A DNA stretch of 64,000 nucleotides, taken from the NCBI GenBank assembly GCA_902799185.1, contig CADBZO010000002.1:78278-142277 (forward strand). The letters are read 5' to 3'. The notes under the pieces are model-generated. The model did no database searches, was not told the DNA's origin, and saw only the letters and a list, made by a program, of their open reading frames with translations. Origin of the DNA: an uncultured Bacteroidales bacterium. Lineage in GTDB: Bacteria; Bacteroidota; Bacteroidia; Bacteroidales; Paludibacteraceae. Both the position numbers and the translations under genes were made by a program. Shown here piece after piece: positions 1,287-57,141 of this stretch (its first letter is position 1; each line of letters starts with the position of its first letter).

Positions 1287-1323
1287 AAGTGAAAAGTGAA
1301 AATTGAAAATTGAAAAGTGAAAG
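1287..1323 (+). repeat. Heptamer array (AGTGAAA/ATTGAAA type)
   Basis: Successive 7-bp units of the form AAAGTGA/AAATTGA lie between the surface-protein stop and the 48-aa peptide gene. It is one of the many period-7 arrays of this window. Confidence 0.7.
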
Positions 1324-1380
1324 GGGCACGGGGTGCCGGAAACGGCATCCCGAGTTCCGAAAACAAGAAACAGAAAAATT

Positions 1381-1527
1381 ATGAAGAAGATGTATAAGAA
1401 ACCAGAAATTGAAACAATGGTGTTACCGGAAGACGCATTAATGGATCAAATTGCTAAGCCGTGTTCGTCTGAAGGACCATTAGTAGGTGCTCCGGAAAGA
1501 CGTCCGGCATCGGGCGATCCGTATTAA
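1381..1527 (+). CDS. 48-aa peptide, MKK-Y-KPEIE type
   Basis: A short ORF begins MKKMYKKPEIETMVLPEDAL and ends PASGDPY. The start with several Lys residues, then a Tyr-Lys-Pro-Glu-Ile-Glu block, resembles small unnamed proteins often found next to exported proteins in Bacteroidales. It has one Cys (CSSEG) in its second half and no membrane segment. I chose the ATG at 1381 because upstream codons in this frame are spacer-like (hairpin and heptamer repeat) and the peptide from this ATG has the family look. The function is unknown; precursor or leader peptides and structural accessory peptides are both possible. It may share a transcript with the surface-protein gene upstream. Confidence 0.5.
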   Translation: MKKMYKKPEIETMVLPEDALMDQIAKPCSSEGPLVGAPERRPASGDPY

Positions 1528-1540
1528 ACCGTTCACCCAA

Positions 1541-1669
1541 CAGAGACGTTAAGGATGCGAACGAGATGCGTTCGTGAGTCTCTGCTAAAAGTACCAACCA
1601 CGAAAGGCAGTCTCCGGGCTGCCTTTGGCGGTTGTGGGGGGGGGGATTGTTATCGGGATGGTATCCCGA
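1541..1669 (+). other. Spacer with three strong hairpins
   Basis: Downstream of the 48-aa peptide gene lie three consecutive stem-loops. Hairpin 1 (1541-1584) pairs CAGAGAC with GTCTCTG and, inside that, CGAACG with CGTTCG. Hairpin 2 (1595-1635) pairs AAAGGCAG with CTGCCTTT, closed outside by CAACC/GGTTG. Hairpin 3 (1651-1669) pairs ATCGGGAT with ATCCCGAT. None is followed by a clear T-run, so a simple intrinsic terminator is not obvious. This could be a structured 3' UTR or a small RNA. Confidence 0.45.
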
Positions 1670-1748
1670 TGCAACGGACGCTGTTAAGGATGGGGTGTGA
1701 TGCAAAATGGCGAAAAATAGTCCCTTGGGCACTTTTTTTGTGAAATAA

Positions 1749-1780
1749 TTTGTATATGTGAATAATTTTTTGTACTTTTG
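1749..1780 (+). promoter_or_regulatory. Bacteroidetes-type promoter for the toxin-antitoxin remnant
   Basis: TTTG at 1749-1752, 20 nt, then TACTTTTG at 1773-1780. The start codon of the downstream gene is at 1806. Confidence 0.65.
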
Positions 1781-1805
1781 CAGCGGAAAGGAAATTTATT
1801 GAGCT

Positions 1806-2036
1806 ATGGAAGCGGTACAACATCAACAATTCGGATTAAACCCAATGCAACTGCATTTGGTCAGTATGCTCAATTTCAATAATACGGAGGCCGCAGAACA
1901 ACGACTCAAAAGAGCTTTGGAACAGTTTTATCTATCGGAGTTTGAGGCTACAAAAGCGACCATGTTCGCTAATGGCGAGCTGACAGAAGAGATGATAGAA
2001 CGCGGTGCAAAAAAACATTTCCGTACTCCGTATTAA
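1806..2036 (+). CDS. Putative antitoxin of a PIN-type toxin pair
   Basis: A 76-aa acidic/helical protein that begins MEAVQHQQFGLNPMQLHLVS and ends HFRTPY. It is followed after one base by the start of a PIN-domain ORF, and small proteins of this kind precede PIN toxins in Bacteroidales; the role as antitoxin is therefore inferred from context and general look. No helix-turn-helix is obvious. It has its own Bacteroidetes-type promoter at 1749-1780. Its partner toxin is truncated (2038-2184), so the gene appears to be an orphan antitoxin. A plain unknown protein cannot be excluded. Confidence 0.55.
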   Translation: MEAVQHQQFGLNPMQLHLVSMLNFNNTEAAEQRLKRALEQFYLSEFEATKATMFANGELTEEMIERGAKKHFRTPY

Positions 2037-2037
2037 C

Positions 2038-2184
2038 ATGAATATCGTTCTGGATTCAAATGTGATATTGCAAGTGGCTTTTACCCAGAAGCCGCTACGG
2101 ATCGTTTTACTAATCATTACAAGGCATAATTATGGCAGCATTAGGTTATCCTTTTTGTCCGGTGCATCCGGGAGAGGTGATTAA
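2038..2184 (+). pseudogene. Truncated PIN-domain (VapC-like) toxin remnant
   Basis: The ORF starts MNIVLDSNVILQVAFTQKP, which is the N-terminal beta-strand of PIN nucleases with the first catalytic Asp (D6). PIN toxins are usually 130-150 aa with further acidic residues; this ORF has 48 codons, and after about residue 20 the sequence no longer looks like a PIN fold and reads out in another frame over the start of the next gene (2132). I infer an internal deletion that joined the 5' end of the toxin gene to the front of the HigA-like gene. The remaining peptide should have no nuclease activity. Confidence 0.6.
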
Positions 2185-2792: not shown

Positions 2793-2832
2793 CAGCCGTT
2801 TTTTGATGAATCACTAATTGGGAAGAGAGCCT

Positions 2833-3666
2833 ATGACGATACTTTGTATCGAAACAAGTACTTCGGTTTGCTCGGCAGCCATCTGTCAGGACGGGCAGCC
2901 GGTGAAGCAATATATCTGCCGCGAGGGGAGTAACCACGCGCAGTTGTTACCCCGTTATATAGAACAGCTGCTGGACGATGCTCGTCAAGGGAACATGACC
3001 CTTGACGCCGTAGCGTTGAGTGAGGGACCGGGCAGCTATACCGGTCTGCGTATCGGTACCGCTACCGCCAAGGGACTATGCTACGGACTGAACGTACCGC
3101 TGATACCCGTTCCGACTCTGGAGGTGCTCTGCGAAGCAGCAAGGGAGATGTACAAGGGGACAATGTACCATGTACAAGATATTATCCTCGTGCCGATGAT
3201 CGACGCCCGGCGTATGGAGGTCTATACGGATGTACAAAGGGACAAGGGACAATGTACAAAGGACAAGGGACAATGTACAAAGGACAATGTACAATGTACA
3301 AAGGACGATGTACGAGGTACAAAGGACGATGTACGAGGTACGATGGAGAACCGGGCACGGGCGGTAGTCGTGGAGAGTGAGGAAAGCCTGTGGGATGTAC
3401 GAAGGGACGATGTACCAAGTACGAAGGTAATTTATTATTTCGGCGACGGGGCTGCCAAATGCCGGCCGGTGCTGCAAGGCGAGCGGTGGCATTACCTGCC
3501 GGATGTTGTGCCGGAAGCGCAGTACATGGGTATGATAGTAGAAAGGCAAAAGTCGAAAGCCGAAAGCAGCGGTATATTGAGCGGGGTTGAACCGGCTTAC
3601 TACGAGCCGTTCTATCTCAAAGAGTTCATCGCCGCCCCCAGTCATGTCAAAGGACTGAAATCTTAA
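2833..3666 (+). CDS. tsaB: tRNA threonylcarbamoyladenosine biosynthesis protein TsaB, with repeat-encoded insertion
   Basis: TsaB is the ASKHA-fold partner of TsaD and TsaE in the transfer of threonylcarbamoyl to A37 of ANN-decoding tRNAs. The frame shows the family start (MTILCIETSTSVCSAAI), SEGPGSYTGLRIG at about 64-76 and PMIDARRMEVY at about 121-131. At 277 aa it is longer than the usual ~230. The extra length is a run rich in Lys, Gly, Gln, Asp and Cys (residues about 134-171 and 188-197) translated from arrays of the 7-bp units TGTACAA/AGGACAA/TGTACGA. The insertion follows the conserved MIDARRMEVY segment, at a place where a surface loop is expected. The ATG at 2833 was chosen because the conserved N-terminus begins there; an upstream TTG at 2818 is less likely. 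Confidence 0.93.
   Translation: MTILCIETSTSVCSAAICQDGQPVKQYICREGSNHAQLLPRYIEQLLDDARQGNMTLDAVALSEGPGSYTGLRIGTATAKGLCYGLNVPLIPVPTLEVLCEAAREMYKGTMYHVQDIILVPMIDARRMEVYTDVQRDKGQCTKDKGQCTKDNVQCTKDDVRGTKDDVRGTMENRARAVVVESEESLWDVRRDDVPSTKVIYYFGDGAAKCRPVLQGERWHYLPDVVPEAQYMGMIVERQKSKAESSGILSGVEPAYYEPFYLKEFIAAPSHVKGLKS
3232..3424 (+). repeat. Heptamer arrays inside tsaB
   Basis: From 3232 to 3343 there are 16 consecutive 7-bp units (variants of TGTACAA, GGGACAA, AGGACAA, TGTACGA, GGTACGA). A second shorter array lies at 3396-3424. Both are read through in frame without a stop. Confidence 0.85.
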
Positions 3667-6645: not shown

Positions 6646-7980
6646 ATGAGTAAAAAATTCTATATTGAGACCTACGGATGCCAAATGAACGTGGCAGACA
6701 GCGAGGTTGTAGCCGCTATCATGGAGACGACGGACGCCGAGATTACCGACCGGTGGGAGGAGGCGGACACGATTCTGCTCAACACCTGTTCCATCCGCGA
6801 CAACGCGGAGCAGAAGGTAGGTGCCCGTTTGCGTGAACTGAAGGGACTGATGAGCAGAAAGTCGAAAGACAAAAGACAAAAGACCACTATCGGAGTTATC
6901 GGCTGCATGGCGGAGCGCATGGGACAGGAACTGATAGACGCGTACGGCGTGGATTTCGTAGCCGGTCCCGACGCGTATCTCGATATCCCGAACCTGCTGG
7001 CGCAATGCGAGCAGGGACATAAGGCGATGAACGTGGAGCTCAGTACCACGGAGACCTACCGCCAGATCATCCCGTCCCGCATAGGCCGCTCTATCAGCGG
7101 GTTTGTGTCCATCATGCGGGGTTGTAACAACTTCTGCTCGTACTGCGTAGTGCCATACACCCGCGGGCGTGAGCGCAGCCGGGATGTGGAGTCGATCCTC
7201 AACGAGGTGAAGGACCTGCAGGCGCGCGGATACAAAGAGGTGACACTTCTGGGCCAGAACGTGAACTCCTACCGCTTCATCCGTCCGGACGGCGAGACGG
7301 TGGATTTTGCGGACCTGCTGGAGATCGTAGCGGACGCCGTGCCTCAGATGCGTATCCGGTTCACCACCAGTCACCCCAAAGACATGTCGGACAAGACCTT
7401 GGAGGCTATCAGCCGCCATAAGAACCTTTGTAAGTTCATCCATCTGGCGGTACAGTCCGGCTCCAATCATATCCTCAAGCTCATGAACCGCAAATACACG
7501 CGGGAGTGGTATCTGGACCGCATCGCCGCTATCCGGCGTATCTTGCCTACGGCCGCTATCAGCACGGATATCTTCTGCGGCTTCCACGACGAGACGATAG
7601 AGGATCACCAACAGACCCTCTCCCTCATGCGCGAGGTAGGGTTCGACAGTGCGTTCATGTTCAAATATTCGGAACGCCCGGGCACGTACGCGCACAAGCA
7701 TCTGCCGGATAACATCTCCGAGGAGGAGAAGGTGCGGAGGCTCAATGAGATCATTGCGCTGCAGACGCAACTCTCGCTGGAGTCCAACCGCCGCGAGATA
7801 GGCAAAGAGGTAGAGGTGCTGGTAGAGGGTTTCTCCAAACGGAGCCACGATGACATGTACGGCCGGACGGAGCAATACAAGACTGTGGTCTTCCCGCGCA
7901 CCGGCCAGAAGATAGGCGATCTGGTCAAAATACGCATTTTGGACGCCTCTGCCGCTACATTAAGGGGCAAAATCATATAA
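6646..7980 (+). CDS. miaB: tRNA-2-methylthio-N6-dimethylallyladenosine synthase MiaB
   Basis: A radical-SAM methylthiotransferase that converts i6A37 to ms2i6A37 in tRNA. Visible are the N-terminal UPF0004 cluster domain (YGCQMN with Cys12, NTCSIRDNA, GVIGCMAER), the radical-SAM motif CNNFCSYC (Cys160, 164, 167) with PYTRGRERSR, and a C-terminal TRAM-like domain (EVLVEGFSKRS). The 444-aa length is normal. Residues about 71-79 (RKSKDKRQK) come from a heptamer array and sit in the loop before IGVIGCMAE. The start MSKKFYIETYGCQMN is typical. The start lies 86 bp from the divergent tRNA-Pro. Confidence 0.96.
   Translation: MSKKFYIETYGCQMNVADSEVVAAIMETTDAEITDRWEEADTILLNTCSIRDNAEQKVGARLRELKGLMSRKSKDKRQKTTIGVIGCMAERMGQELIDAYGVDFVAGPDAYLDIPNLLAQCEQGHKAMNVELSTTETYRQIIPSRIGRSISGFVSIMRGCNNFCSYCVVPYTRGRERSRDVESILNEVKDLQARGYKEVTLLGQNVNSYRFIRPDGETVDFADLLEIVADAVPQMRIRFTTSHPKDMSDKTLEAISRHKNLCKFIHLAVQSGSNHILKLMNRKYTREWYLDRIAAIRRILPTAAISTDIFCGFHDETIEDHQQTLSLMREVGFDSAFMFKYSERPGTYAHKHLPDNISEEEKVRRLNEIIALQTQLSLESNRREIGKEVEVLVEGFSKRSHDDMYGRTEQYKTVVFPRTGQKIGDLVKIRILDASAATLRGKII
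6855..6883 (+). repeat. Heptamer array inside miaB
   Basis: Units AAAGTCG/AAAGACA/AAAGACA, read in frame as RKSKDKRQK. Confidence 0.7.
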
Positions 7981-8790: not shown

Positions 8791-9198
8791 ATGACACTCT
8801 TCACACGCATCATCAAAGGCGAGATCCCGAGCTACAAGGTAGCGGAGGACGAGAAGAACTACGCTTTTTTGGATATCAACCCGTTGGTGAAAGGCCACAC
8901 GCTCGTCATCCCGAAGCTTCCGGAACCGGAGAGCGACTATCTGTTTGACCTGACGGACGAGCAGTATATGAGCCTCATGGCGTTCGCCAAGAGAGTAGCG
9001 AAGGGTCTGAAAGCCGCCACGGGCTGCAAGCGCGTAGGCGTAGCGGTATTAGGCATGGAGGTGAACCACGTACATATCCATCTCGTACCGATGAACAGCG
9101 AGAAAGATATGCTCTTCACCAACCCCAAACTGAGCCTGCCGGCCGAGGAGATGGCGTTCATAGCCAACTCCATCGCAGAGGCCGTGGAGAAAGTTTAA
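8791..9198 (+). CDS. HIT family protein (Hint-type nucleotide hydrolase)
   Basis: A 135-aa histidine-triad protein: FTRIIKGEIPSYKV at the start, NPLVKGHTLVIPK at about 31-43 and the catalytic HVHIHL at residues 93-98. Such proteins hydrolyse purine nucleotide phosphoramidates and related AMP adducts. It follows greA after 34 bp. The stop codon TAA (9196-9198) is formed by a heptamer array shared with the convergent psuG gene. Confidence 0.93.
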   Translation: MTLFTRIIKGEIPSYKVAEDEKNYAFLDINPLVKGHTLVIPKLPEPESDYLFDLTDEQYMSLMAFAKRVAKGLKAATGCKRVGVAVLGMEVNHVHIHLVPMNSEKDMLFTNPKLSLPAEEMAFIANSIAEAVEKV

Positions 9199-9218
9199 AG
9201 TTTAGAGTTTAGAGTTAT
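9191..9218. repeat. Heptamer array holding two convergent stop codons
   Basis: Units AAAGTTT/AAAGTTT/AGAGTTT/AGAGTTA. The HIT stop (9196-9198, plus) and the psuG stop (9215-9217, minus) both lie in it. Confidence 0.75.
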
Positions 9219-11335: not shown

Positions 11336-11694
11336 CTCTTGAGGGCTTTGATGACTGCTTTCTCTATCGTGGCGAAGGGCTGCTCCTCCTTGTCGATATA
11401 GTTGAAGGCTATCATGAAGTTAGAAGTCAGACCGCTGTTGCTGTTAGAAGTCAGGATCCCTTGATGGAGCCTGTACGCCTCGCGCATCAGACGGCGCAGA
11501 CGGTTACGTTTGACGGCGCGTTTGAAAAGCGATTTGGGAGCCCAGACGAGCACTTCTGTAGCAGCCGTTTGTCCTTCGGGAACCTTCTCCCATGTAACGC
11601 GCATAGGCCACGCCGTGAAGCGCTTGCCCTCTTTGTACAGGCGCGTGATGCGCTCCTGACCGCAGAGTTTGTGCTGTTTGGGAAAAGTATTCAT
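11320..11694 (-). CDS. rnpA: Ribonuclease P protein component RnpA
   Basis: The protein subunit of RNase P, which matures tRNA 5' ends. The 124-aa frame shows [21 protein letters not shown] at the start and the RNR motif ([20 protein letters not shown]) at about 58-77. Residues about 81-92 ([13 protein letters not shown]) come from two copies of a TTAGAAGTCAG-type repeat (11418-11455) and sit in a loop before the last strand and helix. I chose ATG 11694; six bases further upstream is a TTG in a heptamer array. It lies between hemD and yidD. Confidence 0.94.
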
Positions 11695-11724
11695 TCTCAA
11701 TTCTCAATTCTCAATTCTCAATTA
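11694..11724 (-). repeat. Heptamer array (CTCAATT)n, left flank of 84-bp element
   Basis: Four units of CTCAATT (plus strand) directly before the rnpA start on one side and the 84-bp element on the other. Confidence 0.8.
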
Positions 11725-11808
11725 ACAAAGCGTCCTAGGGACTTTTGTACAAAATTAATAGAAAGTACGTATCTTAAAACGTTGTACCAACCTCCAAAAT
11801 CCCTTTGT
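11725..11808. repeat. 84-bp element, copy 1, with ACAAAG/CTTTGT inverted ends
   Basis: It begins ACAAAGCGT and ends CCCTTTGT, so six terminal bases are inverted repeats. Copy 2, of the same length, lies at 51491-51574; by hand alignment 68 of 84 positions agree. The most conserved parts are ACAAAGCGT, GTACAAA, TTAATAG, AGTACGTATCTTAAAA, TTGTACCAA and CCCTTTGT. Both copies are directly flanked on both sides by heptamer arrays. No ORF is seen. Confidence 0.75.
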
Positions 11809-17541: not shown

Positions 17542-18369
17542 TTATTTTTCGATTTTGTTATCTAAAAATAACACAATCTTACCTAAATAGGCACCGCTTT
17601 TGCTCATTTGGGCTACAGGGATGCTGTCTCCGTCGAGGTTCGCCACCCTCAGGTCGTCGTATAACTTATGGGTATGTCCGCCGATGACAGCGTCTATGCC
17701 ACGGGTGTTCGCCGCCAGCCGGGTGTCGCATGCGTCTTCCGGTGTCTTGCCGTAGGTGCCCATATGGCTGAGGCAGATCACCAGGTCGCAGCCCTGAGCC
17801 CGAAGGGTGTCCGCTGCGGCCTGCGCCACAGGGTAGGGGGCAAGATACCGGGCGGGAAGGAAGTTCTTGTCCGCTATCAGCCCTTTGGGGTCGCACCCCA
17901 GACCGAAGAGACCGATCTTCAGACCGCCCTTATGCAGGATTACCCATGGCTTCACCATCCCTTCCATCGCCGTGCCGGTGAAATCATAGTTGGCGCACAC
18001 TACCGGGAATTGCGCTCCGCGAAGGATGACGGCGAGGGTGTCGAGCCCGTTGTCAAACTCATGGTTGCCGAGCGTAGCGGCGTCGTAACCCATCCGGTTC
18101 ATCGCGTCTATCTCCACCCGACCGTGATAGAGGTTGAAATACGGGGTGCCCTGACAGAAATCGCCTGCGTCCAACAGCAGCAGGTCCGGGTCCGCCTTGC
18201 GCTCCCGGGCGATCAGTCCCATCCGTTGTGCATAACCGCCGGTACCGTTGGAGCGGGGTTCGACCTGCGAGTGGGTGTCGTTGGTATGCAGGATCGTCAA
18301 GTGGTCCGCCTGCGGCGTGCAGGCTGCGAGACAAAGAATAAAGAATAATGAATAATGAATATTTCTCAT
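17542..18369 (-). CDS. 5'-nucleotidase-type metallophosphatase, catalytic half (lipoprotein)
   Basis: The N-terminal metallophosphoesterase domain of UshA-like 5'-nucleotidases as a stand-alone protein: ILHTNDTHSQVEP (metal ligands Asp and His), LLLDAGDFCQGTPYFN, GYDAATLGNHEFDNGLD, DLVICLSHMGTYG and IDAVIGGHTHKLY. There is no C-terminal nucleotide-binding domain; that half is encoded as a separate lipoprotein at 47646-48392. In Bacteroides-type genomes the two halves are usually neighbours. I chose ATG 18369 (MRNIHYSLFFILCLAAC, lipobox LAAC); 12 bp upstream is another ATG. The hydrophobic part of the signal peptide is encoded by a heptamer array (18332-18366). Confidence 0.88.
   Translation of the reverse strand: MRNIHYSLFFILCLAACTPQADHLTILHTNDTHSQVEPRSNGTGGYAQRMGLIARERKADPDLLLLDAGDFCQGTPYFNLYHGRVEIDAMNRMGYDAATLGNHEFDNGLDTLAVILRGAQFPVVCANYDFTGTAMEGMVKPWVILHKGGLKIGLFGLGCDPKGLIADKNFLPARYLAPYPVAQAAADTLRAQGCDLVICLSHMGTYGKTPEDACDTRLAANTRGIDAVIGGHTHKLYDDLRVANLDGDSIPVAQMSKSGAYLGKIVLFLDNKIEK
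18332..18366 (-). repeat. Heptamer array encoding a signal-peptide core
   Basis: Units TAATGAA/TAATGAA/TAAAGAA/CAAAGAA (plus strand), read on the minus strand as NIHYSLFFILCL of the lipoprotein signal sequence. Confidence 0.8.
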
Positions 18370-24058: not shown

Positions 24059-24486
24059 GTGAAACGAAATACGAGAGCAAGATCACCTCGGCGCGCTGCT
24101 CGGCGCAGGAGATTTACCGGGTGTTGAGTAACCTGCAGAACCTGGAACGCGTGCGCGAGTTCATTCCGCAGGATAAGATTCAAGAGATGGAGATAGAGCC
24201 TGACCGCGTGCGTATGAAAGTGGACGGCCTGGCGCAGAAGATCACCATCGCCATCGTGGACCGGATTGAGAACGACACCGTGAAGTTCGGTGCCGAAGGG
24301 ATTCCCATGGATGCTAACTTCTGGATCCAACTCAAGGAGGTGAGCCCCACTGACACGCGTATCAAACTGACAGTGAAGGCGGATATACCGTTCATGTTCA
24401 AGATGATGGTGGATAAGAAACTGCAGCAGGGGCTCGACCAGGCGGCGGACATGTTGGCGCAGTTCCCCTACGGTCAGTGGAGTTGA
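24055..24486 (+). CDS. SRPBCC family protein (polyketide cyclase-like fold)
   Basis: A 143-aa START/Bet-v1-like protein: ESKITSARCSAQEIYRVLSN at about 6-25, then alternating strands (VRMKVDGLAQKITIAIVD; FWIQLKEVSPTDTRIKLTV) and a C-terminal helix (MVDKKLQQGLDQAADMLAQF). Such proteins bind hydrophobic ligands; the specific ligand is unknown. The start overlaps the preceding lipoprotein gene by 4 bp. The stop TGA is the first unit of a GTTGACA/GTTGAAA heptamer array. Confidence 0.8.
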   Translation: MSETKYESKITSARCSAQEIYRVLSNLQNLERVREFIPQDKIQEMEIEPDRVRMKVDGLAQKITIAIVDRIENDTVKFGAEGIPMDANFWIQLKEVSPTDTRIKLTVKADIPFMFKMMVDKKLQQGLDQAADMLAQFPYGQWS

Positions 24487-24515
24487 CAGTTGACAGTTGA
24501 AAGTTGAAAGTTGAT
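24479..24515 (+). repeat. Heptamer array (GTTGACA/GTTGAAA)
   Basis: Five units start at the stop codon of the SRPBCC gene; the array contains TGA stops in several frames. Confidence 0.8.
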
Positions 24516-25207: not shown

Positions 25208-25261
25208 AAATTGAAAATTACGAATTACGAATTACGAATTACGAGTTAAAAATTACGAACC
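25201..25261 (+). repeat. Heptamer array (AATTACG)n between psd and deoC
   Basis: AAATTGA/AAATTAC units, then four GAATTAC units, then AGTTAAA/AATTACG, filling the whole spacer up to the deoC ATG. Confidence 0.85.
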
Positions 25262-30671: not shown

Positions 30672-30712
30672 AATACAAGATATTAATTATTCATTATTAA
30701 TTATTCATTATA
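30672..30712 (+). repeat. Heptamer array (ATTATTC/ATTAATT) between birA and rfbB
   Basis: TTAATTA/TTCATTA units fill the spacer up to the rfbB ATG. Confidence 0.7.
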
Positions 30713-34430: not shown

Positions 34431-34475
34431 CAAAAGTAGCAAGTAGAAAGACAAAAGAGAAAAGACAAAACAAAA
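34431..34475. repeat. Heptamer array (AAAGACA)n
   Basis: Units AGACAAA/AGTAGCA/AGTAGAA/AGACAAA/AGAGAAA/AGACAAA between the rpsT terminator and the AraC promoter. Confidence 0.7.
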
Positions 34476-34501
34476 AGAGGAACCGCTATTGCAGTTCCTC
34501 C
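34474..34501 (-). terminator. Intrinsic terminator of rpsT
   Basis: Minus strand GAGGAACTGC/GCGGTTCCTC with a short AATA loop and then T5. Confidence 0.85.
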
Positions 34502-35030: not shown

Positions 35031-36038
35031 TTATTCTGAGGTGCGTTTTTGTACCCAAAATGCCAAATATTCCTGCTCCGGCTGTCCCGGAGTGGGGATA
35101 AATTCGAGTTGAGAGTTGAAAGTTGAAAGTTGAGAGTTAAGCAATCCCAATGCCTCCAGATCCATGATGGTGGAGTAACCGGAGCGGACGATGATGTGCT
35201 TCGCCCCCAAGAGAGCAGATGCCAATTCTTTATCCCCCATAGATGGTACGATTGTCAAATTGCCTCGTTTGATACGTGTGTTCGGCCGATGCAACAGTCC
35301 CTGGACGATAAGCACTTGCTCCGCTGAGTTTTGATACCGCGCGGTGATCTCGCTCTCCAGCAGCGTCCGCTGCGGCTCCAGACCGGAGAGAACGGCGACG
35401 GTGGAGTAACTCGGAGAGTTCAGATTATTCTGATTAACCGGATTATTCTGAAACCGGCTCAATGGCCCGATATAAGACAAGGTACAAAGGGACGATGTAC
35501 GATGTACGAAGGATTTTTGAGGATGCCCCAATTCGCCGCTCAGGCTCTTTTCCCGTTCCTCATAGTCCGGGATCCACACCTTATTATAGCGCGTGTATAT
35601 ACGCGCGTGTATCTTGGCGGCGAGAGGTTCGGCCCACCGCCAGCCTTCAGGCAGACGGATATGCAACTGGTGGGTGATATAGATGCACTCGGTGTTCCGG
35701 CTGTACAGTCCGAAGCGGTTGTCGGAGATTACCCGGTCTATATGTTCCTCGCGCAGCACGGCTTGCAGCATGGTGTGGTCTTGTACCGCCCATCTTAGAA
35801 GCTTTGGCAGGGCTTTCAGCATCGCCCACACCTGGCTGCGACCTTTGCCGTAACGCAGTTGCAGCGGTGCCAGATAGACGTATCTCAGTTTGGGAAAATG
35901 GCGTCGCAGAAGTGTCAGACTCTCGCCGTCGCCGCCGAGGATGACCTCATGGTCTTCGTCCAGAAAACGCTGCACCAGAGGAACACACCTGCCGGCGTGG
36001 CCCAACCCCCAGTTCAGTGGTGCTACAAGAATGGTCAT
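35031..36038 (-). CDS. Glycosyltransferase family protein (MurG-like fold), with repeat-encoded insertions
   Basis: A 335-aa GT-B fold protein related to MurG and GT28: ILVAPLNWGLGHAGRCVPLV at residues 3-22, GDGESLTLLRRHFPKLRYVY, TECIYITHQLHIRLPEGW, then the donor-binding C-terminal half (VLIVQGLLHRP, AKHIIVRSGYSTIMDLEALG). Acceptor and donor are unknown. Two heptamer-derived segments are visible: about residues 176-190 (HRTSSLCTLSYIGPL, from TGTACGA units at 35462-35517) between the halves, and about 300-312 (LLNSQLSTFNSQLEF, from GTTGAAA-type units) near the end. The gene starts 36 bp after the radical-SAM gene. Confidence 0.8.
   Translation of the reverse strand: MTILVAPLNWGLGHAGRCVPLVQRFLDEDHEVILGGDGESLTLLRRHFPKLRYVYLAPLQLRYGKGRSQVWAMLKALPKLLRWAVQDHTMLQAVLREEHIDRVISDNRFGLYSRNTECIYITHQLHIRLPEGWRWAEPLAAKIHARIYTRYNKVWIPDYEEREKSLSGELGHPQKSFVHRTSSLCTLSYIGPLSRFQNNPVNQNNLNSPSYSTVAVLSGLEPQRTLLESEITARYQNSAEQVLIVQGLLHRPNTRIKRGNLTIVPSMGDKELASALLGAKHIIVRSGYSTIMDLEALGLLNSQLSTFNSQLEFIPTPGQPEQEYLAFWVQKRTSE
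35106..35147 (-). repeat. Heptamer array inside the glycosyltransferase gene (3' part)
   Basis: Plus strand GTTGAGA/GTTGAAA/GTTGAAA/GTTGAGA/GTTAAGC; on the coding strand it is stop-free and reads LNSQLSTFNSQLE. Confidence 0.85.
35462..35520 (-). repeat. Heptamer array inside the glycosyltransferase gene (middle)
   Basis: Plus strand GTACAAA/GGGACGA/TGTACGA/TGTACGA/AGG units, same vocabulary as in tsaB. Confidence 0.8.
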
Positions 36039-39638: not shown

Positions 39639-41243
39639 CTATTTGGTCTTTGTTCCTTGCTCCGTGTACCGTGCTTTCTTGGGTACTTTCCGGAAAACGT
39701 CGTCTTTGTTGACAGGCCGGCTCTCTTCTTCCCAGAAGAACAACGCCAGCCGCTCTGCCCCTTCGGGTATCTGGTCGAGCGGGTAGAGCGCACCGGTGGT
39801 CTCTTTGGTAAACCGGATACGTTGGATCTCCTGGTTCTCCACATACACGCGGATATAACTGCTCTCGGTGTTGTTCACGCCTATATACCCGCCGCCTTCC
39901 TCCTCGGGGTAATAGACCGTCAGGGCGTTGCCGCTCACATCGACGGTCTTCACCTCGCCGTCAATGAGGTAGGCGGTGATCTCCTTGCCGCTCATCTGGT
40001 TGTATATCTCCAAGGTGTCGTTCATCACGCACAGGGCGTTCTTGATACCTACTGCGTGGTCCACCGTGCCGTTGATGATATACACCCGCATAGAGTCGGC
40101 GGATATCTGCTGGTTCTCGCTCCAGCAGATGGGGTCGGTGAAAAGGTATATCGTGGAGTCCGAACCGAGATAGACCATCGAGTCGCACACCATCTGCATG
40201 TCGTCGCGATAGACGCGCACGCCGTGGTAGGCACGCACGCGGCGGTAGGTGCTGTCGGTGATGGTGCTGTCTGCCGCTATCAGACTGTCGGGATAGAACA
40301 CCTCTTCGGTGAACAGCGTGTCGGCGTGGATATAGGCGTAGTGCAGGCTGTCCGACCAGTCCACCATCAGGGCGCTGTCGGTCGCAAAACCGCGACTCCC
40401 TTCCTCCCACATCTCTCCGTACTCGCCGTAGAGCGTGGCGTGTTGCGCTGTGTCGTTCATAGCCATGTGGCCTAACACTTGGCCGAAACCGATAGCCTTG
40501 TCGTAGTAGATGGTGTCGCCGGTCATGGACTTGCCGTCCGAGTGTTCTACTACAGAGCGGTCCAGCAGCATGGACTGCTCATTGGCGGTGTTGTACCATC
40601 CGCGGGAGGAGAGGATAGTCGTCTCTTCCTCATAGACGATGGTGGTCGGCGAGACGATATCCGCCACTTTTGTGTCGGTGTTATAGAGCAGGGTGTCGCC
40701 GGTGAGGGTGAATTTCGGGTTGGTCAGTATCACCTCATGGCTGAAGGTAGCCTGTTTGGTCTTCGGGCGGTAGTTACCAAGAACGGAGGTGAGAGTGTTA
40801 AGCGAGTCTCTGATCTCGCCGCCGGAGTAGTAATAGGCGATGCCGGCGTGGCGGTCGTAGTTCAGACTGTCGGTTGTCAGTACAGTGGGGTTCTCCTCCT
40901 CGCGGCCATGGATGAGTATCACGTTTCGCCGCATGCGCGCCAGCTTGGTGTTGCCGTCGTAAAACAGCTTCTCGCCGAAACCCTTCAGTGTGTCGCCTTG
41001 TACAAAGCGGATATGACCGAAAGCGTCGAGGGAGTTCGTTCCCTCGTAGAAATACGCGCTGTCGCAGTACATCAGCGCCTCGTCATGGCGGAAGACTACG
41101 TCGCCTTTCAGGATCTGGGCATTGGCTATCCGCTCCTCGTCAAAACTGAGGTTATCCGCCCGCTCCAGGTACACCATCGTCTGGGAAATTGAAAATTGAG
41201 AATTGAAAATTGAAAGGAAGAAGAGGATGAGCAATCCGTTCAT
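39639..41243 (-). CDS. OstA-like protein (LptA/LptD-N family)
   Basis: A 534-aa periplasmic protein of the OstA family, which carries lipopolysaccharide to the outer membrane in other bacteria. It has repeating beta segments (NAQILKGDVVFRHDEALMYC; TLTGDTLLYNTDTKVADIVS; MTGDTIYYDKAIGFGQVLGH; SMVYLGSDSTIYLFTDPICW). The start is ATG 41243 with AAGGAGGAAG directly before it. The signal peptide MNGLLILFFLSIFNSQFSIS is partly encoded by a TCAATTT/TCAATTC heptamer array (41186-41216). It is encoded 60 bp after the SurA-like gene and before the porin, an outer-membrane biogenesis cluster. Confidence 0.85.
   Translation of the reverse strand: MNGLLILFFLSIFNSQFSISQTMVYLERADNLSFDEERIANAQILKGDVVFRHDEALMYCDSAYFYEGTNSLDAFGHIRFVQGDTLKGFGEKLFYDGNTKLARMRRNVILIHGREEENPTVLTTDSLNYDRHAGIAYYYSGGEIRDSLNTLTSVLGNYRPKTKQATFSHEVILTNPKFTLTGDTLLYNTDTKVADIVSPTTIVYEEETTILSSRGWYNTANEQSMLLDRSVVEHSDGKSMTGDTIYYDKAIGFGQVLGHMAMNDTAQHATLYGEYGEMWEEGSRGFATDSALMVDWSDSLHYAYIHADTLFTEEVFYPDSLIAADSTITDSTYRRVRAYHGVRVYRDDMQMVCDSMVYLGSDSTIYLFTDPICWSENQQISADSMRVYIINGTVDHAVGIKNALCVMNDTLEIYNQMSGKEITAYLIDGEVKTVDVSGNALTVYYPEEEGGGYIGVNNTESSYIRVYVENQEIQRIRFTKETTGALYPLDQIPEGAERLALFFWEEESRPVNKDDVFRKVPKKARYTEQGTKTK
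41186..41216 (-). repeat. Heptamer array encoding the OstA-like signal peptide
   Basis: Plus strand AAATTGA units (AAATTGA/AAATTGA/GAATTGA/AAATTGA); on the coding strand LSIFNSQFSIS, stop-free. Confidence 0.85.
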
Positions 41244-41273
41244 CTTCCTCCTTGCATCTTTCGCACTATTTAT

Positions 41274-41303
41274 CCTTTCACTTTTCACTTATCACCTTTC
41301 ACC
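41274..41303 (-). repeat. Heptamer array between the SurA-like and OstA-like genes
   Basis: Plus strand CTTTCAC/TTTTCAC/TTATCAC/CTTTCAC units directly after the SurA-like stop codon. Confidence 0.75.
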
Positions 41304-42677
41304 TTAATGCAGCCAGTTGGGGTACTCGAAATCGCATCCCTGCCACTCCGGAGCTATCTGCACGAAGGTCGTCTTCTGTTTCTGCAGGATCCAGTTATGC
41401 AGCAGCTCCTCGCCTTGTTTCTGCTCCAGCATGGATTTGATAGCCTGGAAATCGTCGGTGAGGTTGGCGCGGTGCACGTCGGTCTTCTTCTTCACCCGCA
41501 CGATAGCGCACACTTCGCGGTTCTTCTGTTGGTCCATCATCACGAACGGCTGCGACACCTCTCCTTCGTTCAGGTTGTAGATCTGTTTGGCTATCTCCGG
41601 CGCCAGTTCCTGGTATTCGAACCGGCTGCTGCCGGTGTTGGGGTTGATCATCAGACCGGCGTTCATCACGGTGTTCTTGTCCTGCGAGAAACGGATCACC
41701 GCTTGCTCAAAGAGCAGACTGTCCGATGCTATCAGCTGGCGGATGGAGTCGAGTCGCTCGATGGCTCTGATCTTGTCTTCGGCGCTGATACGCGGACGGA
41801 TGAGGATATGACGGCAGTTGATGCGGTCGCCTTTCTTCTCGATGAGCTGGATGATATGATAGCCGTATTCGGTCTGTACCACGCGTGAGATGCGCTTGGG
41901 GTCGGAGAGGTTGAATGCCACCTCGGCAAACTCCGGCACCAGTTGCCCCTTGCCTACAAAACCTAACTCACCGCCGCGCTTGGCGCTCTCCGTGTCCTCC
42001 GAATAGAGGCGGGCGAGCATGCTGAAATCGGCGGTTCCGTTCTGGATGCGCTCCGTGAACTCCCGCAGCCGCTGTTTCACACGCTCCGTCTCTTCTACCG
42101 GTACGGGAGGCTCAAAACTGAGGATCTGCACCTCCACCTGGGCAGGCATCATCGGAATGGAGTCTGCCGGCAGGGCATTGTAGTACCTCCGTATCTCCGC
42201 CGGGGTGGGCTTGATGGAGGAGGTCAGCTTCTGCTGCATCTGCTGGATGATCATCTGGTTGCGGACCATGACCATCATTTCCTCGCGTATCTCACTGGAG
42301 GGCTTGCGGAAATACTCCTCCATCTTCTCCTTCGAACCGATCTGATTGATATAATAGTTGAGACGCATGTCCACCTGGTGGCTCACCGACGACTCGTTAG
42401 CCTCTACGGAGTCCAGCTCCGCCTGGTGAAGAAACAGTTTCTGCACCGCCATCTGCTCGGGAATGACGCAATAGGGGTCGCCCTTGATCTGCTGGCCTTC
42501 ATATTGGGCTCTGAGGCGTTCTTCCTCTACCTCGCTGCGGAGGATAGCTTCGTCGCCTACCACCCACACCACCTCGTCTATCACACCCTGTGCATAGGAA
42601 ATGGAGAATTGAAAACTGAAAATTGAAAGGACTATCAGTCCCCGCAATTTTCCCAATATACATTTTTTATCTTTCAT
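41304..42677 (-). CDS. SurA-like peptidylprolyl isomerase
   Basis: A 457-aa periplasmic chaperone/PPIase. The mature start GVIDEVVWVVGDEAILRSEV is the SurA N-domain signature, followed by a helical region and two parvulin domains (MLARLYSEDTESAKRGGELG, FVGKGQLVPEFAEVAFNL, VQTEYGYHIIQLIEKKGDRI, then HILIRPRISAEDKIRAIERL). SurA assists folding of outer-membrane proteins. The signal peptide LSIFSFQFSISYA is partly encoded by a heptamer array (42595-42629). It overlaps the preceding PPIase-like gene by 4 bp. Confidence 0.92.
   Translation of the reverse strand: MKDKKCILGKLRGLIVLSIFSFQFSISYAQGVIDEVVWVVGDEAILRSEVEEERLRAQYEGQQIKGDPYCVIPEQMAVQKLFLHQAELDSVEANESSVSHQVDMRLNYYINQIGSKEKMEEYFRKPSSEIREEMMVMVRNQMIIQQMQQKLTSSIKPTPAEIRRYYNALPADSIPMMPAQVEVQILSFEPPVPVEETERVKQRLREFTERIQNGTADFSMLARLYSEDTESAKRGGELGFVGKGQLVPEFAEVAFNLSDPKRISRVVQTEYGYHIIQLIEKKGDRINCRHILIRPRISAEDKIRAIERLDSIRQLIASDSLLFEQAVIRFSQDKNTVMNAGLMINPNTGSSRFEYQELAPEIAKQIYNLNEGEVSQPFVMMDQQKNREVCAIVRVKKKTDVHRANLTDDFQAIKSMLEQKQGEELLHNWILQKQKTTFVQIAPEWQGCDFEYPNWLH
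42595..42629 (-). repeat. Heptamer array encoding the SurA-like signal peptide
   Basis: Plus strand AATGGAG/AATTGAA/AACTGAA/AATTGAA; on the coding strand LSIFSFQFSIS. Confidence 0.85.
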
Positions 42678-44682: not shown

Positions 44683-44806
44683 TAAGTTGAATGTTGAAAG
44701 TTGAGAGTTGAGAGAAGCCGTCTGGTGGAAAGTTGAAAGAGAAACTTATAACTTAAAACTTGCAAACTTCTCTAAACTCTAAACTCTAAACTCCAAACTA
44801 TCAATC
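44683..44806 (+). repeat. Heptamer arrays between mdh and spt
   Basis: Several types follow each other: GTTGAAA/GTTGAGA, then AACTTAT/AACTTAA/AACTTGC, then CTAAACT repeated three to four times. They fill nearly the entire spacer. Confidence 0.8.
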
Positions 44807-44807
44807 A

Positions 44808-46823: not shown

Positions 46824-47714
46824 ATGCACATCCGAATTATCTCACCGTCCGGGGCGATAGACCCGCTTTATATCGACCAAGCCGTTGCACGCCTGCGCGC
46901 GTGGGGATTTAAGGTTAGCGAGGGTGCGCACGCGCGCGATGCGTGGGGGCGCTTCGCCGGTACGGACGAAGACCGCCTCGCCGACCTTGCGGAGGCGATG
47001 GCCGACCCCGAGGTGGATCTCATCCTCTGCAGCCGCGGCGGATACGGGCTGCAACGGATCATCGACCGTGTACCGCCTGTCACCAAACCGGTCCTCGGCT
47101 TCAGTGATATCACCGCCTTGCACCAGGCGGCAGGCCTGACCGCGCAACCTACGCTTCATAGCATTATGTGCAAGCACATAGCTACCCTCCCGGAGGACAG
47201 CGAACCGCTCCTCGCCTTGCGCCGGGCGCTCGCCGGCGAGACACTCGAATACCGCTTCCCCTCGCACCCCCTCAATCGTCCCGGTGATGTATCCGCACCC
47301 CTTGTCGGCGGCAACCTCTCCGTCCTCTACGGCCTACAAGGCACACTCTATGACCTGCGGTCAAATGTCAAATGTCAAATGTCAAATGTCAAATCTCAAA
47401 AGCCCCTGCTTTTGATTGAGGACATCGCGGAGCGGCATTACCATATAGACCGCATGATGCGCAACCTGCGTCTCTCCGGCGTGCTGGCGAACATCTCCGG
47501 ACTTATCGTCGGCCAGTTCTCCGACTGCGAGGATGACCCCTTGATGCACGCTTCAGTCTATGAGACAATAAAAGAGGCAGTCGCGGATTACGACTACCCC
47601 TTGATTTTCAACGCCCCTGTCGGGCATGTGGAGCATAATCTCCCCTTATGGCTTCACGGCCATACGTCCGTCCACTGCGGCGCGGATGGTGTCCTGCTCA
47701 CGAACAGCCTCTAA
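46824..47714 (+). CDS. ldcA: LD-carboxypeptidase (peptidase S66, LdcA), with repeat-encoded insertion
   Basis: Removes the terminal D-Ala from murein tetrapeptides during cell-wall recycling. The 296-aa protein has IRIISPSGAIDPLYID at the start, ILCSRGGYGLQRIID at about 70-84, the nucleophile Ser94 in GFSDITALHQAAG, LLLIEDIAERHYHIDRMM (Glu) at about 193-210 and the His in NAPVGHVEHNLPLWLHG at about 269. Residues about 180-192 (SNVKCQMSNVKSQK) derive from GTCAAAT heptamers and lie in the loop before LLLIEDIAE. The 3' end overlaps the convergent 5'-nucleotidase gene by 69 bp. Confidence 0.93.
   Translation: MHIRIISPSGAIDPLYIDQAVARLRAWGFKVSEGAHARDAWGRFAGTDEDRLADLAEAMADPEVDLILCSRGGYGLQRIIDRVPPVTKPVLGFSDITALHQAAGLTAQPTLHSIMCKHIATLPEDSEPLLALRRALAGETLEYRFPSHPLNRPGDVSAPLVGGNLSVLYGLQGTLYDLRSNVKCQMSNVKSQKPLLLIEDIAERHYHIDRMMRNLRLSGVLANISGLIVGQFSDCEDDPLMHASVYETIKEAVADYDYPLIFNAPVGHVEHNLPLWLHGHTSVHCGADGVLLTNSL
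47362..47403 (+). repeat. Heptamer array inside ldcA
   Basis: GTCAAAT repeated four times plus GTCAAAT/CTCAAAA variants, read as SNVKCQMSNVKSQ. Confidence 0.85.
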
Positions 47715-51430: not shown

Positions 51431-51490
51431 ATTTACAAAGTACAATGTACAATGTACAATGTACAATTTACAATTTACAATTTACAATTT
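51431..51490 (+). repeat. Heptamer array (TACAATG)n/(TACAATT)n, left flank of 84-bp element
   Basis: After ACAAAG come three TACAATG units and then four TACAATT units, joining the 84-bp element directly. Confidence 0.9.
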
Positions 51491-51574
51491 ACAAAGCGTT
51501 CTGGCAACTATGGTACAAACTTAATAGTTAGTACGTATCTTAAAATATTGTACCAAACCCCGTAAGCCCTTTGT
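51491..51574. repeat. 84-bp element, copy 2
   Basis: Same length and same ends (ACAAAGCGT ... CCCTTTGT) as copy 1 at 11725-11808, 16 differences by hand count. It lies in the leader of the FeoB-like gene, between two heptamer arrays. Confidence 0.75.
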
Positions 51575-55390: not shown

Positions 55391-55420
55391 AAAAAAGGGG
55401 AGCCATTTGGTTCCCCTTTG
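55391..55420 (-). terminator. Intrinsic terminator of rplS
   Basis: Minus strand AAAGGGGAACC/GGCTCCCCTTT with a short loop, then T-run. Confidence 0.85.
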
Positions 55421-55423
55421 ATC

Positions 55424-55777
55424 TTACTTAACGCGACGCTCTTGGATGCGGGCTTTCTTACCCGTACGCTCGCGGAGGTAATACAGTTTCGAACGACGTA
55501 CTTTACCGTACTTGTTCACGGTAATGCTCTCGATGAAGGGGCTGTCCATCGGGAAGATACGCTCTACGCCGATGTTTCCGCTCATCTTACGAACCGTGAA
55601 ACGCTTCTTGTCCTCGCTGCCGTGAATGCAGATCACGTCGCCGCGGAACTCCTGGACACGCTCTTTGTTACCCTCTTTGATACGGTAGCCTACCGTAATC
55701 TGGTCGCCTGCCTTGAACGCAGGGAACTCTTTCTTCTCGCCGGCAAAAGCTTGCTCGGCTACTTTCATCAAATCCAT
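55424..55777 (-). CDS. rplS: 50S ribosomal protein L19
   Basis: A 117-aa protein at the 30S/50S interface: FKAGDQITVGYRIKEGNKER at about 20-39, VQEFRGDVICIHGSEDKKRF at about 40-59, MSGNIGVERIFPMDSPFIES and KLYYLRERTGKKARI at the end, all typical. It is monocistronic with a promoter at 55894-55925, a structured leader (55809-55868) that may serve autoregulation, and a terminator. Confidence 0.98.
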   Translation of the reverse strand: MDLMKVAEQAFAGEKKEFPAFKAGDQITVGYRIKEGNKERVQEFRGDVICIHGSEDKKRFTVRKMSGNIGVERIFPMDSPFIESITVNKYGKVRRSKLYYLRERTGKKARIQERRVK

Positions 55778-55808
55778 TTTTTCTTTCTTTTTTATGGATT
55801 AGTAATCT

Positions 55809-55868
55809 CACAACAGGCATTTACTACTATTCGGTCGGACCTAATTCAATCGCCAGAGGCCTGTTATG
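55809..55868 (-). promoter_or_regulatory. Structured rplS leader (possible ribosomal-protein leader)
   Basis: On the minus strand CATAACAGGC (55868-55859) pairs with GCCTGTTGTG (55818-55809) in a 10-bp helix with one G-U pair. The enclosed 40 nt hold a small GGT/ACC hairpin. The position between promoter and rplS suggests an L19-binding leader. Confidence 0.5.
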
Positions 55869-55893
55869 GCGCCTTTTCTCGCAAAAAAGCATG

Positions 55894-55925
55894 CAAAGGT
55901 ACAACAAATTTATGAATTGACCAAA
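55894..55925 (-). promoter_or_regulatory. Promoter for rplS
   Basis: Minus strand TTTGG (55925-55921), then TACCTTTG (55901-55894). Confidence 0.75.
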
Positions 55926-55951
55926 TAATTCGGCATTTTTTTACGTTTTTC

Positions 55952-55982
55952 TTGCATATTTGCGAAAAAAGCAGTACTTTTG
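55952..55982 (+). promoter_or_regulatory. Promoter for aroC (leaderless)
   Basis: TTGC at 55952, then TACTTTTG at 55975-55982; the aroC ATG begins only 4 nt later at 55987, at the expected transcription start. Confidence 0.75.
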
Positions 55983-55986
55983 TGGC

Positions 55987-57141
55987 ATGAATAACAATAC
56001 TTTCGGAGATAAATGGTCGTTCACCTCTTTCGGTGAGTCCCATGGAGCAGCCGTAGGCGGTGTGCTCGACGGCGTGCCTGCCGGCCTGCATATAGATATG
56101 AACCTGATCCGCGAGGAACTTGCCCGCCGCGCCGGCAAACACTCAACACTCAACACTCAACACTCAACTCCCTTCTCCCCCTCTGAGAGGGGGTCGGGGG
56201 GTGTCCCCAATCCAACTCCCTTCTCCCCCTCTGAGAGGGGGTCGGGGGGTGTCCCCACTCCCCCCGTTTCTCCCCGCGCCCTGCGCGAACCCGACGAGGT
56301 CGAATGGCTCTCCGGCGTCATAAATGATAACTCTCAACTGTCAACTGTCAACTTTCAACTACACTCAACACTCAACACTCAACACTCAACTGCCCTTGTC
56401 ACCCTCGGTACTCCTATCGCCTTTATCATCCGGAACAAAGACGCGCGCCCGGAGGACTACGAGTGGCTCAAACACTCTTACCGCACCGGGCACGCCGACA
56501 AGGTCTATGAACTCAAATACGGTATCCGCGACTGGCGCGGAGGAGGCAGAGCCTCCGCACGGGAGACGGCCGCACGCGTCGTAGCCGGGTGTATTGCCAA
56601 ACAGCACCTCGCCGCCAAAGGTGTGCACATCCATGCGCGCTTAGTCCAAGTAGGCAGCGAGACCGACCCCGCACGTTTCGCCCAGACCATCGCCGACTAC
56701 CAACGCCAAGGCGACTCCATCGGCGGTATCGTCGAGTGTACCGTCACCGGATTGCCTGCCGGCACAGGAGAACCGCTCTTCCATAAGCTCCAGGCGGAAC
56801 TGGCGTTCGCCGTCATGTCCATCAACGCCTGCAAAGGCTTCGAGTACGGCACCGGCTTCGCCGGAGTCACGCAGCCCGGCTCCGCCATCAACCACCTCTC
56901 CGGAGGTATCGCCGGAGGTATTTCAGACGGCACACCCCTCACCTTCCGCGCCGTCTTCAAACCTACACCCTCCACACCCAAGGCACTTGCTAATGTACAA
57001 GGGGACGATGTACCATGTACTAATGTACAAGGGGACGATGTACAATGTACAAAGGTCGGTCGCCATGATCCTTGCGTGGCTGTACGCGCGGTGCCTGTCG
57101 TCGAAGCCATGACCGCCCTCGCCCTCGTCAATTTTCTCTGA
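55987..57141 (+). CDS. aroC: Chorismate synthase AroC with large repeat-encoded insertions
   Basis: Makes chorismate from EPSP with reduced FMN. Family signatures: TFGDKWSFTSFGESHGAAVG at residues 4-23, GVPAGLHIDMNLIREELARR, REPDEVEWLSGVI, TLGTPIAFIIRNKD, the GGGRASARETAARVVAGCIA motif and TGFAGVTQPGSAINHLSGGI. The 384-aa protein has two insertions: residues about 50-100 and 113-137 (from ACTCAAC heptamers and two GC-rich palindromes) and about 335-358 (from TGTACAA/GGGACGA units). The first interrupts the segment that in other AroC proteins reads RRPGQS; only RRAGKHS is left, so activity is uncertain although the frame is intact. ATG 55987 is directly at the promoter. Confidence 0.9.
   Translation: MNNNTFGDKWSFTSFGESHGAAVGGVLDGVPAGLHIDMNLIREELARRAGKHSTLNTQHSTPFSPSERGSGGVPNPTPFSPSERGSGGVPTPPVSPRALREPDEVEWLSGVINDNSQLSTVNFQLHSTLNTQHSTALVTLGTPIAFIIRNKDARPEDYEWLKHSYRTGHADKVYELKYGIRDWRGGGRASARETAARVVAGCIAKQHLAAKGVHIHARLVQVGSETDPARFAQTIADYQRQGDSIGGIVECTVTGLPAGTGEPLFHKLQAELAFAVMSINACKGFEYGTGFAGVTQPGSAINHLSGGIAGGISDGTPLTFRAVFKPTPSTPKALANVQGDDVPCTNVQGDDVQCTKVGRHDPCVAVRAVPVVEAMTALALVNFL
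56136..56397 (+). repeat. Composite heptamer and palindrome insertion inside aroC
   Basis: ACTCAAC units at 56140-56168, two near-identical GC-rich palindromes (56169-56204 and 56218-56253), then after a native-looking stretch GTCAACT/TTCAACT and ACTCAAC units at 56331-56392. The whole is in frame. Confidence 0.85.
56993..57056 (+). repeat. Heptamer array inside aroC (3' part)
   Basis: TGTACAA/GGGGACGA/TGTACCA/TGTACTA variants, twice, read as NVQGDDVPCTNVQGDDVQCT. Confidence 0.8.

Follow-up and report, generated by a model that had tools for sequence, protein, structure and literature searches.

Period-7 tandem arrays in a Paludibacteraceae genome: an 81-bp core with inverted heptad arms, and slots filled by differing repeats in relatives

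Tandem arrays of 7-bp units (heptad arrays) have been seen in scattered bacteria, and their source is not known. The heptameric short tandemly repeated repetitive (STRR) sequences of cyanobacteria are said, after work by Elhai in 2008, to host small dispersed repeats of 21-27 nt. TAACTGA direct repeats occur in Beggiatoaceae, Cyanobacteria and some Bacteroidetes; the part of that report used here describes close relatives of the carriers as showing mostly 7-nt steps or no repeats, and some Bacteroidetes as having other heptamers alongside (MacGregor 2015, PMC4679880). Heptameric simple sequence repeats (SSRs) are over-represented in Xanthomonas and Nostoc, with G-rich units such as GGGAATC and GGGGAYT in the extract consulted (PMC4692102). 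BrickBuilt, a miniature inverted-repeat transposable element (MITE) of Porphyromonas gingivalis, is given there as intergenic, with inverted-repeat ends, internal tandem repeats and 19 copies in one strain (excerpts of PMC4596501). Here we analyse the heptad arrays of a 64,000-nt stretch (the window, G000:C2:78278-142277) from G000, the genome of an uncultured gut Bacteroidales bacterium. An earlier note, made from the letters of the window, had proposed a genome-wide system of such arrays. Two pairs of arrays proved to be the arms of a dispersed element with an 81-bp core, which that note does not contain, and we argue that the arrays are probably the tandem part of a population of small dispersed cassettes.

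Tandem Repeats Finder (score 40) reported 25 period-7 rows in the window, which make 24 distinct arrays once two rows at 3240-3345 are merged; this is close to the minimum of 25 places counted previously. Counting exact runs with no fewer than 12 period matches, we found 19 at period 7, none at periods 3-6, 10, 12 and 13, one each at periods 8 and 9, and two at period 11; the multiples 14 and 21 gave five and six. No period-7 run of this kind occurred in 20 first-order Markov sequences of the length of the window. Counts at the scale of the genome cover 657,219 of the 2,427,595 bases of G000, a 2.43-Mb draft that is 87% complete. There, we found 126 period-7 arrays, compared with two in one second-order Markov sequence and with 0-3 for each of the periods 2-6 (none at period 5, one at period 6). 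Other periods gave 9 (period 8), 20 (period 9), 23 (period 11), 26 (period 14), 19 (period 15) and 18 (period 21). With a slightly lower threshold there were 149 arrays, five of which are runs of N, covering 5,300 bases at about 36 bp each. These counts confirm that period 7 is far above chance and above the neighbouring periods in both window and genome, and that the system is indeed genome-wide.

The two array pairs at 11693-11848 and 51434-51638 are the arms of one element (Table 1). Its 81-bp core has 26 matches in G000, with 76-100% identity to the query, and both arms are visible by eye in 25 of them; in the remaining copy (L161), which is situated at a contig end, one arm is seen. The left-arm units are AATTAAC, AATTCTC, AATTTAC, AATGTAC, AATTCAC, AATTATC and variants, and the right arm carries their reverse complements. 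A profile search gave 95 hits with 82 distinct sequences. Since many copies matched the profile on both strands, the core is an imperfect palindrome and, its arms being inverted, so is the whole element. An orientation filter kept 53 distinct forward-oriented cores from these 82 two-strand hits, in at least eight genomes. Their right arm had the TTG orientation in 52 cases and was undecided in one, their left arm had the opposite orientation in 47 and was undecided in six, and neither arm was ever reversed. Of the 24 cores flanked on either side by called open reading frames (ORFs), 23 are not within an ORF. The gene context of the 26 cores, from crude ORF calls, is tandem for 11, convergent for 10, divergent for three and at an edge for two. 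The element is thus small, multicopy, non-coding and bounded by inverted ends, which are traits of MITEs. The near-identical cores L141 and L142 carry different unit types. Separately, the copies L148 and L164 of G000 have flanks that are 97% identical on one side, and left arms of AATTAAC and AATTCTC, respectively, as if arm units were changing faster than flanks.

A pattern of inverted arms separated by 60-90 unspecified bases, written without the letters of the core, matched in 45 of 121 genomes of the genus. Forward matches, of which one array can yield several that overlap, numbered 63 in G000, 41 in G083, 26 in G093 and 15 in G050, and the reversed pattern gave 0-2 per genome. The same core is carried by all matches listed for G083, G093, G070 and G128 and by part of those in G065 and G066; single matches are in many cases due to chance or to other repeats. 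Searches by DNA similarity located the core in G000 and G050 (five matches) among 61 relatives, and only in G000 when 393 genomes of the order were searched (E ≤ 1e-4); this sample included just two other congeners, and scoring was limited to the two best candidates of each genome.

We compared the sites of the element with those of G144, a relative at about 89% identity, which matches the window at 85-96% in blocks (85-89% under other settings). With L161 left out, up to 25 G000 cores were tried, and for six of them the 839 kb of G144 sequence contained both flanks; all six sites lack the core, and a profile search found no core anywhere in these 839 kb. The clean empty sites are L141 (11693-11848) and L152. 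At 11693-11848, G144 reads straight through with a single CATTCT, a word that borders the insert of G000 on each side; this 6-bp direct duplication is a single case among the six G144 sites. G003 and G022 also lack this insert. Some copies have both flanks in common between genomes (L143/L207, L144/L224, L147/L167 and L165/L208) and are older than the others. The core is inverted at L143/L207 while the flanks agree, and keeps its orientation at the other three.

The copy number, the inverted ends, the cores outside ORFs, the insert-free sites of G144 and the single flank duplication are what one would expect if the element were MITE-like, or like a repetitive extragenic palindrome (REP), mobilised by a chromosomal transposase recognising its ACAAAG...CTTTGT ends, and if all arrays were its remains. 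We regard this explanation as somewhat unlikely. Y1_Tnp and RVT_1 were the families sought, and Y1_Tnp gave a single 24.1-bit match in G000, barely over the cut-off of 23 and with a partial domain in a 375-aa ORF, and none in the core-bearing G050, which is 97% complete. The evidence for a REP-associated tyrosine transposase (RAYT) as the driver is therefore weak. Moreover, the array-rich genomes G018 and G021 (54% and 63% complete) give zero and one inverted-arm matches, so that most of their arrays are unlikely to be remains of the core element. A reverse transcriptase as the driver found no support: RVT_1 does not track the array-rich genomes, with no match in G000, G050 and G021 and one in G018 among the four richest (G000, G018 and G021 being incomplete).

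Arrays at orthologous places, hereafter slots, often differ in content between relatives. The array attributed to the Nfn fusion lies at the Nfn/DacB junction, where G000 has (TTGAAAG)5, G144 TTGTAAA/TTGTACA (in the same TTG register by eye), G050 TTGACAT and G018 TTGATAG; the junction is empty in G128, G022, G003 and L028. Within BirA, the unit of the in-frame array is ATTCTCC in G000, ATTCTCA in G144 and ATTGTCA in G050, and the same place holds a GGTCTTTGAGCGAAGC-type repeat in G018, G022, G004 and G070. BirA is shorter, and has no array, in G128, G136, G142, L023, L025, G006, G003 and L028. Other content also occupies the 35106 slot in G015, G018, G070 and G144, and at 44684-44799 the sole array of G144 is TTGTAAA/TTGTACA. 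As side observations, the insert of G018 at 35106 is GC-rich and palindromic and equals the heptad insert of G000 in length, and the core element of G126 occupies the place that holds the AAATTGA array of G000 at 41186.

Slots could be compared when both flanks were found in the compared sequence of the other genome (44 of 126 in G000, 32 of 118 in G144), alignment hits under 200-250 bp being excluded from the synteny maps. The classes were computed, a slot being absent when no array was scored and the relative was at least 14 bp shorter. Among the 44 slots of G000, G144 had the same or a one-step unit in 14, a different unit in 11, no array in 11, and an unscored sequence of similar length in eight; the corresponding numbers for the 32 slots of G144 in G000 were 14, eight, three and seven. 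By eye, some slots classed as different are the same array in another register (e.g., 25201), and some classed as absent hold a shorter or degenerate array (e.g., C7:10867 and C4:841). Several slots are occupied in the relative by another repeat family (e.g., C4:10570 and L299:14482). Hence, when G000 and G144 are compared, the unit in a slot may be the same or a different one, a repeat of another family may take its place, or the slot may have little or no content. We also observed a 44-bp repeat, CTTATCTCGGCAAGGCCTCGAACGATCGGCTGAAGCCGTATGGA, inside TTGANAG arrays at G000:C1:115674-115806, in its G144 orthologue and at G073:C7:6672, with about six units on each side in G000 and about one in G144.

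The units themselves follow a shared consensus near TTG-N-N-A-R. A consensus score of at least 4 was reached by 81% of 144 arrays (the 149 minus the runs of N), by 38% of shuffled units and by 16% of genomic 7-mers. Pairs of units differing by 0-1 bases made up 15% of all pairs, compared with 4% for letter-shuffled units, in agreement with the proposal that units are related by single changes. Matches to three successive TTGNNAR units range from 0 to 230 per genome within this one genus; they are not array counts, because they overlap within arrays. The richest genomes are G000 (230), G018 (202), G050 (166) and G021 (130), and G005, G008, G009, G011, G013, G020, G023, G024, G044, G049 and G052 have 0-3.

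Could the arrays have arisen by local slippage only? Chance 7-bp duplications would then expand where they stand, the polymerase footprint would favour period 7, an idea reported in PMC4692102 as far as its extract goes, and the AT-rich units would arise by convergence, since they slip best. Existing arrays do seem to undergo slippage: seven of the 14 arrays that G000 and G144 share with the same unit are equal in length, four of the seven unequal ones differ by whole units (7, 21, 21 and 42 bp), and steps of 7, 14 and 21 bp at 25207, C7:10867 and C4:1438 also fit. However, the word TGTACAAAGG at the heart of the AATGTACAAAGGGAC cassette is present 37 times in the 657 kb of G000, three times near cores and 34 times at 24 separate loci, versus two in one third-order Markov sequence (50 versus five in G144). 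Because this word and the core with its arms recur at unrelated loci, slippage is not the source of all arrays, and the unit consensus exceeds that of composition-matched shuffles. In a seeding test on the 14 absent slots, the relative matched the unit of the array at 6.4/7 on average and other units at 5.6/7. This excess is due to six slots with a perfect seed. At C2:47877 (5/7, mean 5.5 for other units) and C4:14078 (6, other units 5.8) no better seed is present than other units give. We take this outcome as two routes rather than one, and consider local slippage as the only process to be unlikely. The earlier judgement that slippage alone does not suffice is therefore upheld.

The explanation that we favour as probable is that cassettes enter tolerated slots and are then resized by 7-bp slippage. 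One kind of cassette would be the 81-bp core with its inverted heptad arms, at many loci, much like a miniature inverted-repeat element; the other kinds would be heptad-only or of a GTAC/GGGAC type. They may enter tolerant places, i.e., spacers, gene ends and variable positions of proteins, after which replication slippage or unequal exchange by 7 bp would alter the copy number and homogenise the unit, and a slot would therefore differ in unit type or length from one related species to the next. In genes, purifying selection would retain only in-frame, open arrays. The core is dispersed and has inverted arms, relatives have insert-free sites, some arrays change by whole units and slots exchange their content; transposition-like dispersal, slippage as the length mechanism and selection on the frame would account for this. 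Slot sharing would then reflect tolerance rather than a targeted site, the same positions being hit or refilled presumably because few positions in genes accept inserts and the pressure of insertion is high. The single stop-free strand is the coding strand in 30 of the 34 in-gene arrays having exactly one such strand, a count that we do not use as proof because ORF calling demands an open frame and the argument is partly circular.

Several observations weigh against this cassette explanation. No transposase, reverse transcriptase or target rule could be tied to the element in the search for Y1_Tnp and RVT_1. There is no target duplication at L152, and no clean reading is possible for L151 and L158 in G144; the sites at L163 and L166 depend on partly aligned left flanks, and the absence of the core in G144 could be a loss. 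The remaining three unequal shared arrays differ by 2, 3 and 22 bp. The relative has one perfect copy of the unit at six of the 14 absent slots, so that part of the arrays could be local expansions, and several of these six are not empty but contain a shorter array. Among the 24 TGTACAAAGG loci, a few resemble ordinary coding words. Finally, the TTGNNAR pattern read backwards is also rich in heptads (92 matches in G000, 84 in G018, 16 in G021 and 11 in G050) and exceeds the forward pattern in G007 (114 versus 16). The triple count therefore measures heptad wealth and not a strict unit rule, which rests instead on the consensus scoring against shuffled units and genomic 7-mers.

Two further explanations were considered. 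The arrays might be selected regulatory or structural sites, such as protein-binding GTAC boxes, terminators or mRNA elements. The core has three GTAC boxes 18-19 bp apart, several copies adjoin terminator-like hairpins and stop codons, and some are retained at orthologous places across species. Yet the conserved structure that RNAalifold gave for the core was limited to stems of 5 bp on one strand and 4 bp on the other, the triple counts swing widely within one genus, and the gene contexts of arrays are near the background (divergent in 8/82 versus 87/489, from crude ORF calls), which makes this very unlikely. The single-sequence RNA fold of the core is unexceptional (z -1.3); the DNA fold of arm, core and arm has a z of -2.9. 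Alternatively, the arms might be made during mobility, if both 3' ends of a small palindromic element were extended outward by a 7-nt unit starting with TTG, in a telomere-like manner, solitary arrays being footprints of end extension at breaks. The outward arms in every decided case, the same unit family at both ends, the unit difference between L141 and L142 and some seedless sites are compatible with this, and we hold it to be highly improbable. A genus with many sequenced species, such a wide range of counts and some clean empty sites allows gain, loss, unit change and slippage to be separated. The reverse findings, relatives with the same arrays of equal age in the same places and no empty sites, or an enrichment at the level of chance, had been named in advance as grounds for dropping the idea of an array system; what we found are empty sites and an enrichment above chance.

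Table 1. Arrays and core elements of the window, with gene labels checked by Pfam
Feature	Position	Strand	Remarks
Heptad array AAGTGAA, past ORF ending at 1272	1287..1322		
AATGTACAAAGGGAC-type cassette array inside TsaD-domain (TsaB-like) ORF 2818-3666	3230..3345	+	
Heptad array AAAGACA inside MiaB ORF 6646-7980	6865..6884	+	
Heptad array AAAGTTT, 3' end of HIT-domain ORF	9190..9216		
Left heptad arm, copy 1, unit AATTCTC x4	11693..11723	-	Tandem Repeats Finder; empty in G144, G003, G022
81-bp core, copy 1	11724..11804	+	26 copies in G000
Right heptad arm, copy 1, units TTGTACA/TTGTAAA	11805..11848	+	Inverted relative to left arm
Heptad array AAAGAAT, 5' end of phosphoesterase ORF	18333..18361		Common to G144
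Heptad array TTGACAG/TTGAAAG	24481..24514	+	Many congeners without; TTGAGAT in G050
Heptad array AATTACG, psd-deoC	25201..25259		G144 short by 7 and 14 bp
GC-rich palindromic block in Nfn ORF	26975..27087	+	Other repetitive sequence in G144, 15 bp shorter
GGACAAAGGGACAATGTACAATGTACAAAGG cassette in Nfn ORF	27489..27520	+	Another repeat in G144
(TTGAAAG)5 at Nfn stop / DacB start	28485..28519	+	
In-frame array ATTCTCC in BirA	30126..30169	+	
Heptad array TATTAAT/TATTCAT	30681..30711		Identical in G144
Degenerate AAAGACA array	34447..34478		Similar in G144
24-bp TTGANAG insert in ORF 35031-36038	35106..35138	-	ORF with no Pfam family
Arrays AAATTGA and CCTTTCA	41186..41305		Other repeats in G144, core element in G126
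TTGANAG and TTTAGAG arrays plus spacer, between mdh and aminotransferase	44684..44799		
GTCAAAT array in S66 LD-carboxypeptidase ORF	47360..47400	+	+24 bp versus G003
Left heptad arm, copy 2, units AATGTAC/AATTTAC	51434..51490	-	
Core, copy 2, 80% identical to copy 1	51491..51570	+	G000:C2:129768-129847
Right heptad arm, copy 2, mainly TTGTTAA	51571..51638	+	
AACACTC arrays around 48-bp GC-rich tandem repeat, inside chorismate synthase ORF	56138..56391	+	
AATGTACAAGGGGACGATGTAC cassette inside chorismate synthase ORF	56990..57052	+	

Of the gene assignments of the earlier note, Pfam supports arrays inside the ORFs of MiaB, the TsaD-domain (TsaB-like) protein, BirA, the S66 LD-carboxypeptidase and chorismate synthase, and the spacers psd-deoC and mdh-aminotransferase were rightly described as filled. 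The array thought to lie inside pepD is at 51434 in a spacer, since the stop of the M20 peptidase ORF (51386) precedes it. The window also has arrays of other periods, with period 11 at 3713-3747 and 23174-23265 (at 23186, G000 exceeds G144 by 55 bp, i.e., five units) and a period-8 array, GGTCACAC, at 62918-62958, within the 67% G+C sequence in which the window ends. The Rfam scan gave two tRNAs and one sRNA, a match to BTncRNA_FopS (a Bacteroidetes paralogous sRNA family) at 10157-10231 on the minus strand. The best named relatives of the Nfn protein are eight loci at 85-89% identity from metagenome-assembled genomes (MAGs) of uncultured Bacteroidales or Paludibacteraceae. One title names the goat reticulum, and further loci come from sheep colon, roe deer cecum and yak omasum; the RUG isolates are rumen genomes. 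The tree of the relatives was built from three genes projected on the window.

The likeness to the cyanobacterial STRR sequences, already noticed from the letters, is apt: tandem 7-bp repeats are present at many loci, and the 44-bp CTTATCTCGGCAAGG...GTATGGA repeat inside TTGANAG arrays fits the picture of repeats embedded in STRR arrays, as this is reportedly drawn. The host, in contrast, is not cyanobacterial, its best protein relatives being Bacteroidales MAGs, the core is 81 bp long and not the 21-27 nt reported there, and the arms are inverted on its two sides, so that the element did not arise by simple insertion of the core into a single directional array. Earlier work has described heptad arrays in Bacteroidetes (PMC4679880, in the part used here); the mixture of units and the in-frame insertions that had been called unusual are supported here. 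As described in that part, TAACTGA repeats resemble the present arrays in being heptameric direct repeats, mostly intergenic and sometimes in ORFs, and differ in having one dominant unit, where we find a mixed TTGNNAR family and an inverted-arm element with a core; TAACTGA is not among the unit classes listed for the analysed part of G000. The SSRs of Xanthomonas and Nostoc share the enrichment of period 7 and the variation of length and sequence between close relatives at the same intergenic place, whereas the present units are AT-rich, of the TTG type and lie in many cases within genes (PMC4692102, from the same extract). The tandem repeats of Borgs likewise evolve fast, arise independently and lie in spacers and ORFs, on archaeal extrachromosomal elements, and their abstract states no period-7 rule (PMC9879509). 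BrickBuilt has 23-nt direct repeats between a leader and a tail, in the excerpts at hand, where the present element has a unique core between inverted 7-bp arrays (PMC4596501). In the open-licence literature searched, we found no earlier description of a unique core with inverted heptad arms. This element gives part of the arrays a carrier, and protein length changes visibly where cassettes are exchanged in frame within conserved enzymes. The inverted-arm element and the slot exchange are thus the new parts of this system, whereas heptad arrays as such are already known elsewhere.

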